In this document: positions 38,040-47,675 of the stretch, in pieces | Layout of the letters: the number at the start of each line of letters is the position of its first letter | Numbering within the stretch: the stretch's first letter is position 1 | Source of the DNA: Deltaproteobacteria bacterium | Lineage (GTDB): Bacteria > Myxococcota_C > UBA6777 | Length of the DNA: 48,359 nucleotides | Assembly (NCBI GenBank): GCA_002731275.1 | Contig: PCBK01000095.1 | Span: 1-48,359 of the forward strand | Reading direction: 5' to 3' | Program-made: the position numbers and the translations under genes | Notes under the pieces: generated by a model | What the model was told of the DNA's origin: nothing | What the model saw: only the letters and a program-made list of their open reading frames with translations | Databases searched by the model: none

Positions 38040-39209
38040 ATGTCCAACCAGCTAGATAGAGAAGTCCTCGTCTTCCGATTGTTAGCCGGCGAGCTTTCCG
38101 ATGAAGAGGCCACTCAGGCGCTTGATGCGATTGAACAAGAACCCGAGCTGCGCGAACTTCTCCTCCAAAGAGACGCCCTCCAGGAAGCCGCAAAGCATCT
38201 CGTACAAGCCCTCACCATCAGCGAAACCGAGATCCGCGACTACATCCTCGGAAACATGACGCAAGACCAACAACGCACATTTGAGGAGCGTGTCTCCAAA
38301 GACGAAGACGCACAAGACCGCGTCGAACAAGCCAAAAAGCTGCTCAAGACCTTGCAAACCACTCCCTCCACCAACGCCCCCGCCAAAAATGAGACCGCAC
38401 ACTGGGTCGCCGCCAAATCCGAGAAGGTGCTCAGTGACCTCGCTCTTCACAGCGAAGCGCCCGAAGAAAACGACCTCAATATGACACAAGACTTTCGCCC
38501 CGCTCCCTCCAAGGTCCAAACCAACCAAAACGACGACGGCGAACCCAAACCCGCAAAAGACCAACTCACAGCTTCCTACGAAGGCGCGCTCGACCCCGAC
38601 GCCGTCCCCACCGTCGATCTCTCAGACCATCCGGGCCTGACACAAGCCATCGGCTCTGCCGGCGAAGGTCTGCAGCTCGAAACAACAGTCGAATCACCAC
38701 CTCCCCCTGAAGTCCAAGAAGCCGCAAAGGCAGGCAGCCTGACACACACCTTCGATCAACCCCCTCCACCTCCACCAGCCGAACCCAAACGCATGGACCA
38801 AACCGTCGAAGTCCGCGCATCACAACAACCTCCCCCCCCACAAGAGAACAGCCGATACACCGCTGTCCTTGAGTTCCACAGTAAGTCCAACCGCGAACGA
38901 CACACGCTCCAGAGTGGTCCCACACTGATCGGCGCCCTCCACCCATGTCAGATCCAGATCGAAGACTCAGAAGTCTCCGGCGTACACGCAAGACTCCTGT
39001 TCAGCGAGAGCACCGGCGGACTGTGGATCGAAGATCTGCGCTCCACCAACGGCACCTACCTACTTCAAGATGTCCGAAAGATCCGACTGTCTGCACCATC
39101 CCGTGTCGAAGGCAAAGACTACCTCCTGACCTATCCACAAGAACTCAAAAACGGCGACAAACTCCTCGTTGGCGATACGTATATCACCGTCGAGATCCAC
39201 ACCAAATGA
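38040..39209 (+). CDS. FHA-domain protein with anti-sigma-like N-terminus
   Basis: Cytoplasmic protein of 389 residues. Residues 1-100 are helical and acidic (LLAGELSDEEATQALDAIEQEPELRELL), resembling the non-zinc anti-sigma/ASD fold. The middle is a disordered, Pro/Glu-rich linker with runs such as PPPPPP. Residues about 275-385 form an FHA domain (GALHPCQIQIEDSEVSGVHARL, STNGTYL) that should bind phosphothreonine peptides. The ATG at 38040 has AGGAG about eight bases upstream. It is followed by a Ser/Thr kinase gene 94 bases on, so it is a likely substrate or adaptor of that kinase. Its linker has Thr residues that could be phosphorylated (inference). Confidence 0.9.
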   Translation: MSNQLDREVLVFRLLAGELSDEEATQALDAIEQEPELRELLLQRDALQEAAKHLVQALTISETEIRDYILGNMTQDQQRTFEERVSKDEDAQDRVEQAKKLLKTLQTTPSTNAPAKNETAHWVAAKSEKVLSDLALHSEAPEENDLNMTQDFRPAPSKVQTNQNDDGEPKPAKDQLTASYEGALDPDAVPTVDLSDHPGLTQAIGSAGEGLQLETTVESPPPPEVQEAAKAGSLTHTFDQPPPPPPAEPKRMDQTVEVRASQQPPPPQENSRYTAVLEFHSKSNRERHTLQSGPTLIGALHPCQIQIEDSEVSGVHARLLFSESTGGLWIEDLRSTNGTYLLQDVRKIRLSAPSRVEGKDYLLTYPQELKNGDKLLVGDTYITVEIHTK

Positions 39210-39303
39210 CCATCTATCAACAGACACCTTCCCACCTACCAAAAGAGAGCCCGATCGCGTAAAGATCCATTCCTTTTGCCCCAACACAACCGGGAGTCCT
39301 TTC

Positions 39304-42300
39304 TTGCGTTGCCCTCAATGCCACTCAACGTTTCAGCAAGACATCGCCGAGATGTCCTTTTGTCTCCACTGTCGCTTCCCCCTGCGAGACATCGCGCACA
39401 AGTACAAGCTCGCCCGTGTCCTCGGACGTGGTGGCGCAGGGACAGTCTATCTCGCCCATCACATCCGCCTCGCACAACACAACGAACGCGTGATCAAGAT
39501 CATCACGACGCCCCGACGCACAGAAGAACTCGAAGCCCGCTTCTATCAAGAAGTCCAGATCACCGCGTCGCTCTCCCAATCCAATGACCATATCGTCCGT
39601 ATATACGATGACTTTGGTTATGAAAAAGGTCTCGGCTACTACTACGTCATGGAGTACCTACAAGGCCAAAGCCTGCGCGAGCTGCTCGACCAACAAGGCG
39701 CCCTACGTCCCGACGTCGCCCTCCCCCTCTTCCACCAAATCTGTATGGGGATCATCGCCGCCCACAGAGAAGGCGTCATCCACCGCGATCTCAAACCCGA
39801 AAACGTCCAAATCATCAGAAGACCTGACATCCCACTCTTCGCAAAGGTGATCGACTTTGGCATCGCTTACACCCTCACAGAAGACGCCGCGCACATCACC
39901 AAAGGGCTGATCGGCACACCACAATACATGTCCCCTGAGCAGTGCCTCGACAAACCCATCGACCAACGCACCGATATCTACGCGATGGGCGTCGTTCTCT
40001 ACGAAATGCTCACAGGTGCCACGCCCTTCATCACGGACAACACCCCCTCCCAATCAGGCAACTTCGCCGTCATGTTCGCCCACGTCTGGAACGAACCACA
40101 ACCCATGCGCAGACGCTGGCCGACCCTCGCGATCCCTGACACACTCGACGACATCGTACTCAAGATGCTCGCCAAAGATCCCAATCACCGCTACAACACC
40201 CTGCAAGAAGTCCTTCACGAGATCTTACAGGTGATGGAGCTTCCACCTTCGACAGCGCTGCCCTCCTTGCAAAATATCCCGGCGCTCGACAACCACATCA
40301 ATACACCCCGCTCCACCGCACAGCGCCTGACCTCCGTCCCCTACCATACCACACAAGCCTCCTCTCCCTACGACGCGCTCAACAGCATGGAGCGCATGTA
40401 CCTGCAAAAGAGCAATCTCAAAGAGTCGATGACACCGTTCATCGGTCGCGCAGAAGAATTGCAGCGGCTGACACAGCTCTTCACAGAAGGACATCGACTC
40501 GTGACCCTCCTCGGTCCAGGCGGGACAGGCAAAAGCCGCCTCGCGACTGAGTACGGACGCGCACAGATCGAACAACGCGATGGCGGCGTCTGGTTCTGCG
40601 ATCTCACAGAGGCACACAACTTACGCGACCTCCTCAGCGCCGTCGCGACACCGCTTCAGATCCAATTGTCAAACAGCAACACAAACGACGCCATCCAACA
40701 GATCGGTTATGCCTTGCGTTCACGTGGTGACACGCTGATCTTGATGGACAACTTTGAACAGGTCCTTCAACACGCCCCACAGACATTAGGGGTCTGGATG
40801 ACAGAGGCCCCACAAGCGACCTTCTTGTTGACGTCGCGAGAACGTCTGCGGCTGCCCGGCGAGCATCCCTTTGACCTCCCACCGCTCCCAGAAGACGAAG
40901 CGCTCGAATTGTTCAAACAACGGGCCAAAGCAGTCCGTGCGGACTTCGAGATCGATGACAGTAACAGGGAGACGCTCCTTCATATCGTCGAACGACTCGA
41001 CAAACTCCCCCTCGCGATCGAGCTTGCCGCAGCGCGCGTCAACATCCTCAGCCCCGACGCCCTCCTCGACCGTCTCGACAAACGCTTCCAACTCCTCAGC
41101 AGCGGCAGAAAAGAGCTACCACAACGACAGGCCACACTGCGCGGCGCGATCGATTGGTCCTGGGAGCTGCTCGAAGATTATGAACAAGAGACCTTCTCAC
41201 AATGTGCGATCTTTCAGGGCGGCTTCACCCTCGAAGCAGCCGAAGCGATCCTCGACTCTCAATTTGAAGATGCCCCCTGGATTCTCGATCGCATCGAAGC
41301 CCTCAAGGACAAATCCCTCCTGCGTTTTTGGAAGCCTTCACACAAATGGAGCGACACGCGCTTTGGGATGTACGAAAGTATCCGCGAGTACGCCGCCGAA
41401 AAGCTCAAGAAATCGGAACAGCGCGATGACCTCGCGAAGAGACACGCCGCTTACTACCTGAAGCGTGGCAGTGAACTCTCACAAGGCGTCTACCAACACG
41501 GTGGCGTCAAAAAACTCCACAAACTCTTCGAGGAGTCGAGGAACATTCGTGGGATTTACAAACGATTCAAAGAGGACGACCCGCTCCTCGCCCTGCAAGC
41601 TCTCCTCGTCCTCGAACCCGTCTATTCGATGAAGGGTTCTCGCCAAGATTACCTGGAGATGTTGCGCCCACTCCTCTCACTCGATCAAAAAGAAACCAAG
41701 CTCGAACACATCAAAGGTTTTCGCATCCAGGCGGAGATCCTGCGTCGTGTCGGGCAGGTCGACGAGGCTCACAAGACCTTCGCCTTTGCTCTACACGCGG
41801 CAAAAGAACAGGGACATCGCGCTGAAGAGGGAGACATCCTCAACAGAGTCGGCAATCTCACCCGTCTACAGGGCGATAAACAAGGTGCCAAAGACCTCCA
41901 TCTCGAAGCGATGAAGATCTTCAAGTCACTCGACGACAAACGAGGTGAGGCGATCTCCCTTGGACATCTAGGCAATATCCATCGCCTCCTCGGTCATCTC
42001 GACGCCGCAGAGGAGTTTCATCTGCGCGCCCTCTCCCTTCAACAAGAGACAGGTGACAGACGTGGTGAAGGCATCGCGCTCGGCCAGCTCGGCAATCTCT
42101 ACAGAATCCAAGGCCGCCTACACGAGGCCAACAGATATTACGGCCTCGCCCTGAAGATCCACCGCGAGCTAGGCGACCGCAACGGCGAAGGCATCGACCT
42201 CAACAATCTCGGCAATTTGCTCATGAGACAGGGTCGCCTTCGAGAAGCTGAGAAGCACTACAAGAAAGCCCTCGATATCCACAGAAGAAGCGGAGATCGT

Positions 42301-43152
42301 CGCGGCGAAGGCATCGCCTCCGGACAGCTCGGCAATCTCTACAGGATGAAGGGTGACTTTCACAAAGCCGAACCTCTCCAGCGGAATGCCTTGCAATTAC
42401 AACGCACACTCGACGACAAGAGAGGCGAAGGCATCGGGCTCAACAACCTCGGTAACTTGTACCGTTCACAAGGACATTACAGAGAGGCCGAACATCATTA
42501 TCAACAGGCCATCGAGATCCACAAACGCCATCACGACAGGATGGGTGAGGGCTTCTCGCTGCTCTATCTCGGGATCTTGTACCTCGAAGAGCAACGTTAT
42601 CTGGACGCTTCGCGCTCTCTACAGCAGGCGCTCACACAATTTTCCAAACGCCGCGTCAAAGGTCCACAAGGGACTGTCCTGAGTCATCTCGGGACGTGGC
42701 ATCGTCTCGAAGGCCGTACCAAAGAAGCCATACAGTGTTACATGCAGGCGCTTGGGTTGTTGGAGAAGAAAGACCGCCGCGAAGAAGCACGAACACGCGC
42801 ACTCCTCGGCAGCCTACACGCAGACATGGATAAAAAGACCGCTGCGATCAACTCCTTTCAAATCGCCCAACAGCTGCTTGAAAACTACGAAGACCCGCTC
42901 TCCAAAGCGGTCCTTGACATCTCACGTGGTCATCTCGACCTTTCGTACATGCGGGAAGCCATCAAATTCCGCGAACAGGCCGCAGCCGATACACATAAAC
43001 AGGCCGCCCAAGAAAAGCTAGACCTAGTGAATAAGCCCGACTACATCGAGCTTCCTTCTTCGGCACAGGCGCTGAGTATGGCCGCTTGCTCAAGTGAGCT
43101 GCGGATCGCCATACAGTGCCTGGAGAGAGCCCTGCATAGCAGACATCACTGA
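39304..43152 (+). CDS. Ser/Thr protein kinase with zinc ribbon, NB-ARC-type ATPase and TPR array
   Basis: Protein of 1282 residues. An N-terminal CxxC...CxxC zinc ribbon (RCPQC, FCLHC) precedes a Hanks-type kinase: GRGGAG (41-46), Lys65, HRDLKPEN (His160-), DFG Asp184 and GTPQYMSPEQ. Next is a STAND-type ATPase with P-loop GPGGTGKS (404-411), then about nine TPRs (about residues 800-1180) with the motif GNLYRxQGxxxEAExxYxxALxIH. This fits large myxobacterial kinases that sense a ligand through the TPR and ATPase part. The start is inferred as TTG at 39304: GGGAG is seven bases upstream, no ATG lies before the zinc ribbon, and the frame opens at 39169 inside the FHA gene. The next gene follows after 16 bases. 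Confidence 0.92.
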   Translation: MRCPQCHSTFQQDIAEMSFCLHCRFPLRDIAHKYKLARVLGRGGAGTVYLAHHIRLAQHNERVIKIITTPRRTEELEARFYQEVQITASLSQSNDHIVRIYDDFGYEKGLGYYYVMEYLQGQSLRELLDQQGALRPDVALPLFHQICMGIIAAHREGVIHRDLKPENVQIIRRPDIPLFAKVIDFGIAYTLTEDAAHITKGLIGTPQYMSPEQCLDKPIDQRTDIYAMGVVLYEMLTGATPFITDNTPSQSGNFAVMFAHVWNEPQPMRRRWPTLAIPDTLDDIVLKMLAKDPNHRYNTLQEVLHEILQVMELPPSTALPSLQNIPALDNHINTPRSTAQRLTSVPYHTTQASSPYDALNSMERMYLQKSNLKESMTPFIGRAEELQRLTQLFTEGHRLVTLLGPGGTGKSRLATEYGRAQIEQRDGGVWFCDLTEAHNLRDLLSAVATPLQIQLSNSNTNDAIQQIGYALRSRGDTLILMDNFEQVLQHAPQTLGVWMTEAPQATFLLTSRERLRLPGEHPFDLPPLPEDEALELFKQRAKAVRADFEIDDSNRETLLHIVERLDKLPLAIELAAARVNILSPDALLDRLDKRFQLLSSGRKELPQRQATLRGAIDWSWELLEDYEQETFSQCAIFQGGFTLEAAEAILDSQFEDAPWILDRIEALKDKSLLRFWKPSHKWSDTRFGMYESIREYAAEKLKKSEQRDDLAKRHAAYYLKRGSELSQGVYQHGGVKKLHKLFEESRNIRGIYKRFKEDDPLLALQALLVLEPVYSMKGSRQDYLEMLRPLLSLDQKETKLEHIKGFRIQAEILRRVGQVDEAHKTFAFALHAAKEQGHRAEEGDILNRVGNLTRLQGDKQGAKDLHLEAMKIFKSLDDKRGEAISLGHLGNIHRLLGHLDAAEEFHLRALSLQQETGDRRGEGIALGQLGNLYRIQGRLHEANRYYGLALKIHRELGDRNGEGIDLNNLGNLLMRQGRLREAEKHYKKALDIHRRSGDRRGEGIASGQLGNLYRMKGDFHKAEPLQRNALQLQRTLDDKRGEGIGLNNLGNLYRSQGHYREAEHHYQQAIEIHKRHHDRMGEGFSLLYLGILYLEEQRYLDASRSLQQALTQFSKRRVKGPQGTVLSHLGTWHRLEGRTKEAIQCYMQALGLLEKKDRREEARTRALLGSLHADMDKKTAAINSFQIAQQLLENYEDPLSKAVLDISRGHLDLSYMREAIKFREQAAADTHKQAAQEKLDLVNKPDYIELPSSAQALSMAACSSELRIAIQCLERALHSRHH

Positions 43153-44589: not shown

Positions 44590-44918
44590 TCATCTCAGAA
44601 CCAGCTTCCCCCTACTCAAACCTCGACACTCTCGGCTTGGCAAGGGGAGCGATGTATACAAGAGGAAGCAGAACCCCCTCAGACGGGCTTCGCCCGCCAG
44701 CTCCCCCTACTCAAACCTCGATACTCTCGGCTTGGCAAGGGGAGCGATGCATACAAAAGAATAAGAGTCAACAACCTCTGCCTAAGGGGAGCAGCTTGAG
44801 AGAGTCTCTGTGTTGACCAGTCCCAGTGAGAACACTCGAAATGACTTGGGGAAGCACAAAGCTCCTATTCAAATTGACAGAGAGCGAAGTGAACGGATTT
44901 GGGAGGGGAGGATTTCAA
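44590..44918. repeat. Intergenic region with a roughly 60-base direct repeat
   Basis: A unit of about 60 bases beginning CAGCTTCCCCCTACTCAAAC at about 44602-44662 recurs at about 44698-44759 with a few changes, including a single-base deletion near its start. A small hairpin CGGGC-TTC-GCCCG (44684-44696) lies between the copies. No gene is supported. The region also contains the 3-prime flank of the Rieske gene. Confidence 0.6.
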
Positions 44919-45260
44919 TCAGTGTGAATTACGTGGTCGTCGTCTTTTGGGTGGCCATTCAAGTTCGATCACACCATCGACTTCACGGATGGTGTAGATC
45001 AGAGCGGCCCGACAATTGATCTTGGAGGTCACGGAGCCGACGTGGAGATTGAAGCGGGCGTTGTGCCAGGGACACAGGACAGTCGTCCCTTCGAGCGTCC
45101 CTTCAGACAGGGGCGCGCCCATGTGGGGGCATTGATTCTCGATCGCATAAACATTCCCTTCGACACGGAACACGGCGATCTCTTCGTCTTCAAATTTTCG
45201 GCACAGAGAGCCACCTTCGGCGAGGTCTGATGAATTCGCGTAAAATATCCACTCAGGCAT
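44919..45260 (-). CDS. Small Rieske [2Fe-2S] ferredoxin-like protein
   Basis: Cytoplasmic protein of 113 residues with one Rieske cluster. The ligands are CPH (Cys44, His46) and CPWH (Cys63, His66). It resembles stand-alone Rieske ferredoxins and NirD-like subunits that pass electrons to oxygenases or reductases. The ATG at 45260 is preferred: GGAG is nine bases upstream, and the TTG at 45266 would be too close to it. It ends with a basic tail (PKRRRPRNSH). It is divergent from the selenocysteine peroxiredoxin-like gene; 215 bases between the two starts should hold both promoters. A shared redox role is plausible but unproven. Confidence 0.92.
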   Translation of the reverse strand: MPEWIFYANSSDLAEGGSLCRKFEDEEIAVFRVEGNVYAIENQCPHMGAPLSEGTLEGTTVLCPWHNARFNLHVGSVTSKINCRAALIYTIREVDGVIELEWPPKRRRPRNSH

Positions 45261-45475
45261 CTTCAATGTCTCCTTTTGTTGTGGCTCGATTCGCCAGATA
45301 GAAGGTCCGTTTGTGTACTTTGGTACCTTTTGTGTGTATCACAGATGAGCCCCAAACATCACCAATGGTTGCAAAGATTTCTCGGACACCACCGTTTTTT
45401 GCGTGTATATTGCAAAGACACTTCACATACCACCCCAACCCGTTTTTGCGGCCTGGGTGAGAGAAAGGACGAAAG

Positions 45476-46288
45476 ATGTACGCACAGATACAGCTCTGGA
45501 GTAGCGTCGTAGGTCTCGTGGTTGTCGTTGCTGGGTGGGTCCACTACCTCGCGCTGATCCCACAGGAGAAAGTCCCCGCAAGACCCACACTCCACACGTC
45601 ACTGATGGGACTCTCGATCCTCGCGATCGTCGCCACGTTCACAGTGGGGATCGTGATGGGACAGGTCCCCTCTGTTGTCTCTTGGATCCTCGCCGGAAAT
45701 GTCGTCGTCCTCGGCGGATTCTTTTTGTACTTGTTGACACAAGCGCCTTTACCGGATCAGGCGATCAAGGTCCGGCTCGGAGAACCCTTCCCACTGCTCA
45801 CTGCCCCTGACAGCCAAGGGACGATACACAGCTCAGAGACATGGAAGGGAAAACGTGTACTGTTCAAGTTTTTTAGAGGGTACTGGTGACCTTATTGCGC
45901 CGCTGAGTTGCAGCGGTTCGACCAGATGAAGCCTTTGTTTGACCAGTACAATGTGAGCGTGATTGCGCTGAGTAAAGATACGCAAAAAGAGGTCGCATTC
46001 CACCTTGAGAGGGACGGATTGGAGAATGTATTGTTGTTGTCCGATCCAAAGCTTGAGATGATCCGAAAATTCGGTCTTGAACATCACAAAGCGCTGGAGT
46101 TTATCACCTGGAATGTCTTGGGCATCCCACTCGGTGTCCCCGGAGGGTTTAAGACAATGGCGATCCCTACATCGATCTTGCTCGACGAAGAAGGTGTCGT
46201 GCGATGGATCGATCAGGCCGATGATTACAGACAACGCGGCGATGAACAACGTATCCAAACCGCCCTCGAAGAGGTCTTTTCATCGTAA
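45476..46288 (+). CDS. Membrane-anchored peroxiredoxin-like selenoprotein (in-frame UGA)
   Basis: One 270-residue gene interrupted by a TGA at 45887-45889 that I read as selenocysteine 138. Before it: three membrane segments (about residues 8-27, 42-62, 68-90) and the start of a thioredoxin/AhpC-TSA fold (GEPFPLLTAPDSQG, then RVLFKFFRGYW). After it, in the same frame: PYC-AAELQRF and the rest of the fold (VSVIALSKD, AIPTSILLDEEGVVRWI). The motif is RGYW-U-PYC, matching the WCPYC redox site of AhpC/TSA-like Prx with Cys replaced by Sec. A SECIS-like hairpin follows directly. Start supported by AAAGGA six bases upstream. It is likely a thiol peroxidase or disulfide reductase at the membrane. 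Ordinary gene calling would report two truncated ORFs. Confidence 0.88.
45899..45917 (+). promoter_or_regulatory. Candidate bacterial SECIS element
   Basis: CCGCTG-AGTTG-CAGCGG (45900-45916) is a perfect 6-bp stem with a 5-base loop, extended by one G-U pair. It lies inside the coding sequence just after the TGA; the loop begins 16 bases after it. The loop has G in its second position followed by U. This fits the published bacterial SECIS features (apical loop with G in the first two bases, 16-37 bases from the UGA). Confidence 0.7.
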
Positions 46289-46772
46289 GTTTCTGGGGAG
46301 AAGCACTATCCGTCTTTTGGGGAAAAGAACTATCCGTTTTGAGGAGAAGAACTGTCCGTTTTGAAGAGAAGAACTGTCCGTTTTGAAGAGAAGAACTGTC
46401 CGTTTTGAAGAGAAGAACTATCGGGGGAAATGAATTTCCCCCAAGCGCGCTTTGCTTGCTTTCCCCCTCAGTTGAGCCTCTTTGAGGCTGTTTTTGTTTT
46501 CGTAGGGCTACACACATAGGCGTAGAGGAATTCTTTTTGAATTGAGCTGGCTATCCCCAAGGCCGTCAGGCCTTCAAATGCGGTCCGGCGCGCTGCGCTG
46601 GTTCAAATGCGGTTTCGCAAACGGTTTTGCAAACGCCTGTCTTGTATGCCATTCTTTGTAAGTGGTCCTCTCGCGAAGTAAGCGCATGAGTATGATGTTG
46701 CATTTCCCCCCATAGGGTCGGGCCTTGTGTCCGACCTCAAGGCATTGAAAACACACGCCAAAGGAGTTCGTT
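46289..46772. repeat. Intergenic region with 22-base tandem repeats and dispersed repeat
   Basis: No gene. About five and a half copies of a 22-base unit (GAGAAGAACTGTCCGTTTTGAA) run from about 46297 to 46420, the first two less perfect. A hairpin GGGGGAAAT-GA-ATTTCCCCC follows at 46423-46442. A 30-base stretch at 46573-46602 repeats one at 307-336 with one mismatch, and TTCAAATGCGGT recurs at 46602-46613. The repeats are contiguous, so they are not CRISPR. Confidence 0.7.
46475..46500 (+). terminator. Rho-independent terminator after the selenoprotein gene
   Basis: AGCCTC-TTT-GAGGCT (6-bp stem, 46475-46489) is followed by GTTTTTGTTTT. It lies about 190 bases downstream of the selenoprotein stop and in the plus orientation, so it probably ends that transcript. 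Confidence 0.65.
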
Positions 46773-47675
46773 ATGGTACACAGAGAGACTTTTGAGAACA
46801 GAGATGAACGATTTCGCCAAAAGCTCAAGCAGCTCGTCGCAAAGACACTCCCTGTCGTCTTTGTGTCCGGTACGCTCATGCTCACCCACTGTAGCTCCGG
46901 CCCCGCCACAAAAGAAGGCACACAAACCGAACAAACCAAAGAAAAAGTCACAGAGCAGGCAAAAGAAAAAGCAACAGAAAAAACAACAGAGCCCATCACA
47001 GAATATCCAGTGGTGGTTGATGGAAGGCGTCCAGATGGGCTTTGTGAACCGGCCTTTGATGACAGTTATATGACAGAGGAGCGGGACATTGTGAGCGCGT
47101 TCTTTGCCCGAATCGTCCACCTTGAGCGTTCTGCGGTCGTAGCCTTTGAGTATCTTGCCCGTGAATTGGAAGCCTATAACGCACCACAAGAGTTAATCGA
47201 TATCGCCTACCAGGCTGTCGAAGAGGAAAAAGAACACGCTCGTTTGATGACACAGGTCGTCGAACACTTTGGTGGTGCGTCAATTCCCCCGGTCGAAGTC
47301 GCTCCCTTCAAACTCCGACCACTTTATGAGATCGCATTTGAGAACGCCGAAGAAGGTTGTACACGAGAGACATACGGTGCGTTGATGGCTTTGTGGCAAG
47401 CAGAGGCCGCGAATGATGAACTGGTACGTTCGGTGTGTGCGCAAGTGGGGCATGATGAGAGCCGACATGCAGCGCTGTCTTGGGCGATCGATGAATGGGT
47501 GACACCACTTTTGACAATTGAGCAACAGCAAGAACTTATGGCGATCAAAGCGTCAACGATGGATGTCCTTCGCGAAGAATCCAGGCGTCCCGTCCACCCT
47601 GCGCTTGTCAAATGGGCTGGATATCCCACACCACAAGCCGCTTCTCTCCTCCTCCAAGATAGTTTCGCCGCGTAA
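46773..47675 (+). CDS. Ferritin-like-fold lipoprotein
   Basis: Protein of 300 residues. The N-terminus has a charged stretch and then a hydrophobic signal ending LMLTHC (Cys40, a relaxed lipobox). A Glu/Thr/Lys linker follows (to about residue 80). Residues about 110-250 look like a four-helix ferritin-like domain with Glu/His metal motifs: HLERSAVVAFEYLARE, AVEEEKEHARLM, QAEAANDELV and GHDESRHAALSW. These can bind a di-iron centre. Myxococcota have related ferritin-like lipoproteins of unknown role. The start has AAAGGAG eight bases upstream. Possible roles are iron or oxidant handling in the periplasm (inference). Confidence 0.87.
   Translation: MVHRETFENRDERFRQKLKQLVAKTLPVVFVSGTLMLTHCSSGPATKEGTQTEQTKEKVTEQAKEKATEKTTEPITEYPVVVDGRRPDGLCEPAFDDSYMTEERDIVSAFFARIVHLERSAVVAFEYLARELEAYNAPQELIDIAYQAVEEEKEHARLMTQVVEHFGGASIPPVEVAPFKLRPLYEIAFENAEEGCTRETYGALMALWQAEAANDELVRSVCAQVGHDESRHAALSWAIDEWVTPLLTIEQQQELMAIKASTMDVLREESRRPVHPALVKWAGYPTPQAASLLLQDSFAA

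Follow-up and report, generated by a model that had tools for sequence, protein, structure and literature searches.

Relation to described redox proteins

Prx-like selenoproteins with a UxxC motif (PF00578; "Prx-like 1") are a listed family (PMC1088965, PMC2398784, and Table 1 of PMC13188914). The locus described here shares with them the PF00578 domain, the UxxC motif and a bacterial SECIS directly after the UGA, but its own family differs by three conserved N-terminal membrane spans and by the great rarity of Cys forms. As to a membrane anchor in the listed proteins, the word "transmembrane" is absent from PMC1088965 and the word "membrane" from PMC2398784.

Among the NCBIfam models, the best match of the protein encoded in the window (the whole analysed stretch of 48,359 nucleotides) is the SelL-related redox protein NF040769, which has a related redox domain; however, the score is 41.4 bits against a cut-off of 120, and the match is confined to the redox domain. 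No NCBIfam model exceeded its cut-off for the window protein or the other homologs scanned, including two distant leader-bearing ones. Sec-peroxiredoxin (TxxU) is likewise a selenoprotein of the same fold superfamily, but there Sec replaces the peroxidatic Cys, while the window Sec lies three residues earlier (UxxC). ResA and TlpA carry a single tether, and their Cys-containing domain faces outside. They resemble the window protein in the thioredoxin fold with a CxxC-type motif, the Pro-Thr pair and the membrane tether, whereas the window protein has three spans, is predicted to face inside and contains Sec; the ResA model NF002854 gives it 30.8 bits against a curated cut-off of 170. The soluble proteins named "peroxiredoxin-like family protein" in RefSeq show 25-30% identity, but to the redox domain only (~61-66% of the query), with no three-span anchor aligned.

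The UxxC Prx-like kind is already known, while the three-span, almost always Sec-containing subfamily appears to be undescribed. The main texts of the open-access papers searched yielded no description of a three-span Prx-like selenoprotein layout, which does not prove its absence, and the subfamily could already sit, unremarked, in the "Prx-like 1" or "redoxin family" sets of metagenome surveys. We tentatively suggest, at somewhat less than even confidence, that it represents an unnamed selenoprotein subfamily of three-span, inner-membrane, cytoplasm-facing redox enzymes, in which Sec is near-exceptionless across several phyla, Cys occurs only upon loss of the Sec machinery, and the function is to counter the oxidation of lipids or proteins as a reductase at the membrane surface. 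Since standard annotation presents such genes as two fragments or an antisense ORF, a family distributed across several bacterial groups is easily missed.

Reading frame and in-frame TGA

The features of the locus are collected in Table 1. As the initial annotation had claimed, two frames in the same phase are parted by one TGA only, the frame being otherwise open, and its read-through translation places U138 within RGYW-U-PYC. The continuity of the thioredoxin-fold protein on both sides of the TGA was borne out by the Pfam scan of the window protein: the PF00578 match spans the TGA (residues 102-244; 78 bits against a gathering score of 26; E 7.4e-22), and PF08534 was also matched across it. 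When two sibling genomes were compared (L003 versus L004), dN/dS was 0.17 upstream of the TGA and 0.07 downstream; the latter value indicates that the 3' half is a translated protein. An antisense ORF of 141 aa (window 45833-46258, minus strand) spans the TGA, and annotation might mistake it for the gene.

Table 1. Features of the selenoprotein locus (window coordinates)
Feature	Coordinates	Strand	Details
Selenoprotein gene, 270 residues, three-span, AhpC/TSA-domain, Sec at 138	45476..46288	+	ATG start, TAA stop (46286-46288)
Region coding three predicted membrane helices (residues ~5-30, 38-60, 67-88), no Cys	45487..45742	+	Hydropathy and AlphaFold2
Peroxiredoxin-like thioredoxin-fold domain, residues ~99-270	45770..46285	+	PF00578, PF08534; fold match Bcp4 3hjp
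In-frame TGA interpreted as selenocysteine (U138), U-P-Y-C motif	45887..45889	+	Homolog comparison
TGC codon of Cys141, proposed partner of U138; sole Cys in protein	45896..45898	+	
Bacterial SECIS hairpin: 6-bp stem CCGCUG/CAGCGG, loop AGUUG, conserved G second in loop	45900..45916	+	

Conservation of the TGA in homologs

In the alignment of the 40 closest distinct loci (>195 bits, window included, re-fetched copies removed before counting), 39 have TGA at the residue-138 column, and the sole exception, L082, has TGC (Cys). The next homologs outward (<100 bits) have either Cys or Sec there (RGGWCPYC, RGxWUPYC), which identifies the column as a redox Cys/Sec position. The TGA is fixed in independent genomes and is therefore not a sequencing error.

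The sampled phylum of the window genome comprises five genomes. The TGA is retained at the same column in three of the four siblings, these being all that have a full copy of the gene; the two siblings with the closest homologs were deposited as Myxococcota MAGs and a third sibling as a Deltaproteobacteria MAG. The fourth, G001, has only the last 38 codons, behind unrelated sequence (L007 1501-1614): this genome may have lost the gene or be able to do without it, or the contig may be incomplete, and the tail is a gene remnant or an assembly join. The scan of genome contigs revealed homologs in records labelled Actinomycetota, Deltaproteobacteria, Oligoflexia and Alphaproteobacteria, all of them with TGA, and many more came from 377 and 385 further genomes searched. 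The viral contigs searched contained no relatives of the window protein, and the plasmids searched only distant soluble ones.

Some related sequences deserve separate mention. The L003 ortholog (2302 onward) has a frame without a stop that continues into lipoprotein-like sequence, by fusion, frameshift or chance. L108, a distant homolog match in G733, has one TGA and three TAG codons in frame, pointing to a decayed gene or TAG recoding. In two sibling genomes there is a further Prx-like protein, shorter and likewise with U at the residue-138 column (L025 1414-1965, RGDWURFC; L026 1303-1884, RGHWUPYC); it has a leader-like N-terminus, not three spans, and is probably a separate selenoprotein.

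Selenocysteine machinery

The selenoprotein claim depended on Sec genes elsewhere in the genome, and all of those sought were detected in the 10.75 Mb assembly, of which the window is one whole contig: SelA (E 3e-139), SelB (380 bits, exceeding its cut-off), SelD (365 bits; it too carries an in-frame TGA, in a UxxK motif, at L050 around 1541) and tRNA-Sec with the anticodon UCA. SelD with one TGA was also seen in three of the sibling genomes. Among the 13 genomes tested in all, SelB was found in each of the 12 that carry the TGA form. Two of the genomes with the TGA, G003 and G043, gave no SelA match, which we ascribe to incomplete assembly. In G413, the genome of the Cys form L082, neither SelA nor SelB was found; machinery, hairpin and TGA are all lost together there, in a single genome only. 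With Sec used almost without exception and Cys confined to a genome lacking SelA/SelB matches, the family is a clean natural setting in which to ask why selenium is required by a redox enzyme. In an Actinomycetota-labelled record (G041:C153 5195-15575), selA adjoins selB, ~7 kb from the selenoprotein gene on the same contig.

SECIS hairpin

The hairpin proposed as a SECIS in the initial annotation is indeed present and folds as described there: the arms CCGCTG (45900-45905) and CAGCGG (45911-45916) enclose AGTTG, and the stem-loop begins 10 nt 3' of the UGA. Across 39 distinct sequences, 99.1% of the cells of the six-pair stem are paired, and double-sided changes affect 4 of the 6 stem pairs (22 cells); none of 500 shuffles matched this pairing and covariation, and stems displaced by 1-3 columns have far lower scores. 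At columns 14-30 the pair varies between C-G, G-C, U-A and G-U; since the 3' base of this pair falls at the third position of an Arg codon, the match is not explained by coding alone. The loop of the homologs reads AGUU(G/A), with G in second place, in agreement with the small apical loop with a guanosine reported for bacterial SECIS elements (PMC1088965). The evidence for the hairpin is comparative, since its single-sequence fold is unremarkable against shuffles (z -1.4), and Rfam covariance models run over 44800-47000, permissive thresholds included, gave no SECIS. After the TGC of L082 the hairpin is lost, only two of the six pairs remaining when counted by eye.

Taken with the Cys/Sec column in homologs, these data strongly support the selenoprotein interpretation of 45476-46288, and other readings of the TGA have to be measured against them. 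A nonsense mutation or a sequencing error in an ordinary Cys gene (TGC/TGT) would make the locus a pseudogene, and a single base change does separate TGA from a Cys codon, as the TGC of L082 illustrates; however, the identical TGA column in 39 distinct loci, the purifying selection downstream of it, the covarying hairpin and the Sec machinery encoded in the genome all speak against this, and we rejected the pseudogene as refuted by the conserved TGA, leaving it a negligible probability. The UGA might also be decoded by ordinary readthrough or by a code that assigns TGA to Trp or Gly, and the frame is open under any code that takes TGA as sense. Nevertheless, TGA also terminates several of the homologs' own genes, the single close homolog that lacks the TGA has Cys rather than Trp or Gly in a genome where SelA and SelB were not found, and a dedicated tRNA-Sec(UCA) is present. 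An alternative code was rejected on these grounds, and decoding other than as Sec is, in our estimation, extremely improbable.

Membrane anchor, fold and proposed chemistry

The three N-terminal spans noted from the sequence as an unusual layout are borne out by hydropathy and AlphaFold2 and extend to the whole family, being clear in 37 of the 38 homologs scored. In the AlphaFold2 model of the window protein (mean pLDDT 86, pTM 0.79), three helices (H2-30, H38-60, H67-88) are joined to a thioredoxin fold, whose best fold match is the peroxiredoxin Bcp4 (3hjp; Z 21.9, rmsd 2.2 over 157 residues). Over the 38 homologs, the mean K/R number is 3.6 in loop 1, 0.13 in loop 2 and 2.1 in the post-span segment, a distribution which, by the positive-inside rule, suggests an N-terminus on the outside and a catalytic domain on the cytoplasmic side.

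The initial annotation placed the TGA at the peroxidatic or resolving Cys. That it occupies a redox Cys/Sec column holds; the peroxidatic assignment does not, since the profile alignment sets C141 opposite the peroxidatic Cys and U138 opposite the Thr of the PrxQ-type TxxC (PKDNTPGC etc. versus RGxWUPYC). The classical peroxiredoxin motif PxxxTxxC is absent, the same columns reading RxxxUxxC, and the UxxC motif is present as UPYC. By this alignment, U138 is the first residue of a thioredoxin-type UxxC, in the thioredoxin order with the nucleophile first and the resolver three residues later. "Prx-like thiol:disulfide oxidoreductase, UxxC" suits the protein better than "peroxiredoxin" because U138 starts a thioredoxin-like UxxC and C141 takes the peroxidatic position. 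U0 and C+3 are the only Cys/Sec positions common to the family, and C141 is the sole Cys of the window protein. In eight members the P231-T232 pair is invariant, and it presumably recalls the thioredoxin cis-Pro.

On the comparative evidence, we propose that the ribosome would insert selenocysteine at the UGA, directed by the downstream stem-loop, SelB and tRNA-Sec, and that the product would be an inner-membrane protein whose peroxiredoxin-like domain, behind its three spans, faces the cytoplasm. U138 may act as the attacking selenolate of the UPYC motif and reduce a substrate near the membrane, either a disulfide or a (hydro)peroxide; resolution by C141 may then give an internal selenenylsulfide, which a thioredoxin-like donor would re-reduce. 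Attack by the selenolate followed by an internal selenenylsulfide is the simplest chemistry to propose, since neither the protein nor the shared core of the family has a redox residue besides U138 and C141. The explanation as a whole, a full-length selenoprotein with Sec insertion, a membrane anchor and cytoplasm-facing UPYC redox chemistry, is in our opinion very probable. With a single Sec and only one shared Cys, a Sec enzyme of this kind, bound to the membrane and apparently facing the cytoplasm, lends itself to simple tests.

The selenoprotein could instead be a true Bcp/PrxQ-like peroxidase for lipid or alkyl hydroperoxides at the membrane. The PF00578 match, the peroxiredoxin Bcp4 as top fold match and the fit of lipid peroxides to a membrane placement give this substance, but U138 stands opposite the Thr of a motif that is not preserved, and UxxC with the P231-T232 pair resembles ResA, TlpA and thioredoxin, so we regard a peroxidase as a plausible but less probable function than that of a thiol:disulfide oxidoreductase. 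The sequence resemblance to ResA, which is tethered outside the membrane, would suit a catalytic domain facing the periplasm, as in ResA or TlpA; we consider this orientation unlikely, given the positive loop 1 and post-span segment and the nearly uncharged loop 2, which are consistent over the 38 homologs.

Gene neighbourhood

When the window was compared with four other loci, the flanking genes of the homologs were not conserved, and the context therefore gives no hint of a pathway. Directly 3' of the selenoprotein stop lies a tandem array (window 46298-46422) of a 22-bp unit, GAGAAGAACTATCCGTTTTGAA, in 5.6 copies with 91% matches. It is followed by a gene (window 46773-47675, plus strand) for a ferritin-like-looking lipoprotein with repeated E..H motifs and no Pfam or NCBIfam match. 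On the other side, window 39169-43152 (plus strand) encodes a STAND-type signalling protein of 1327 aa that combines kinase, NB-ARC and TPR domains.
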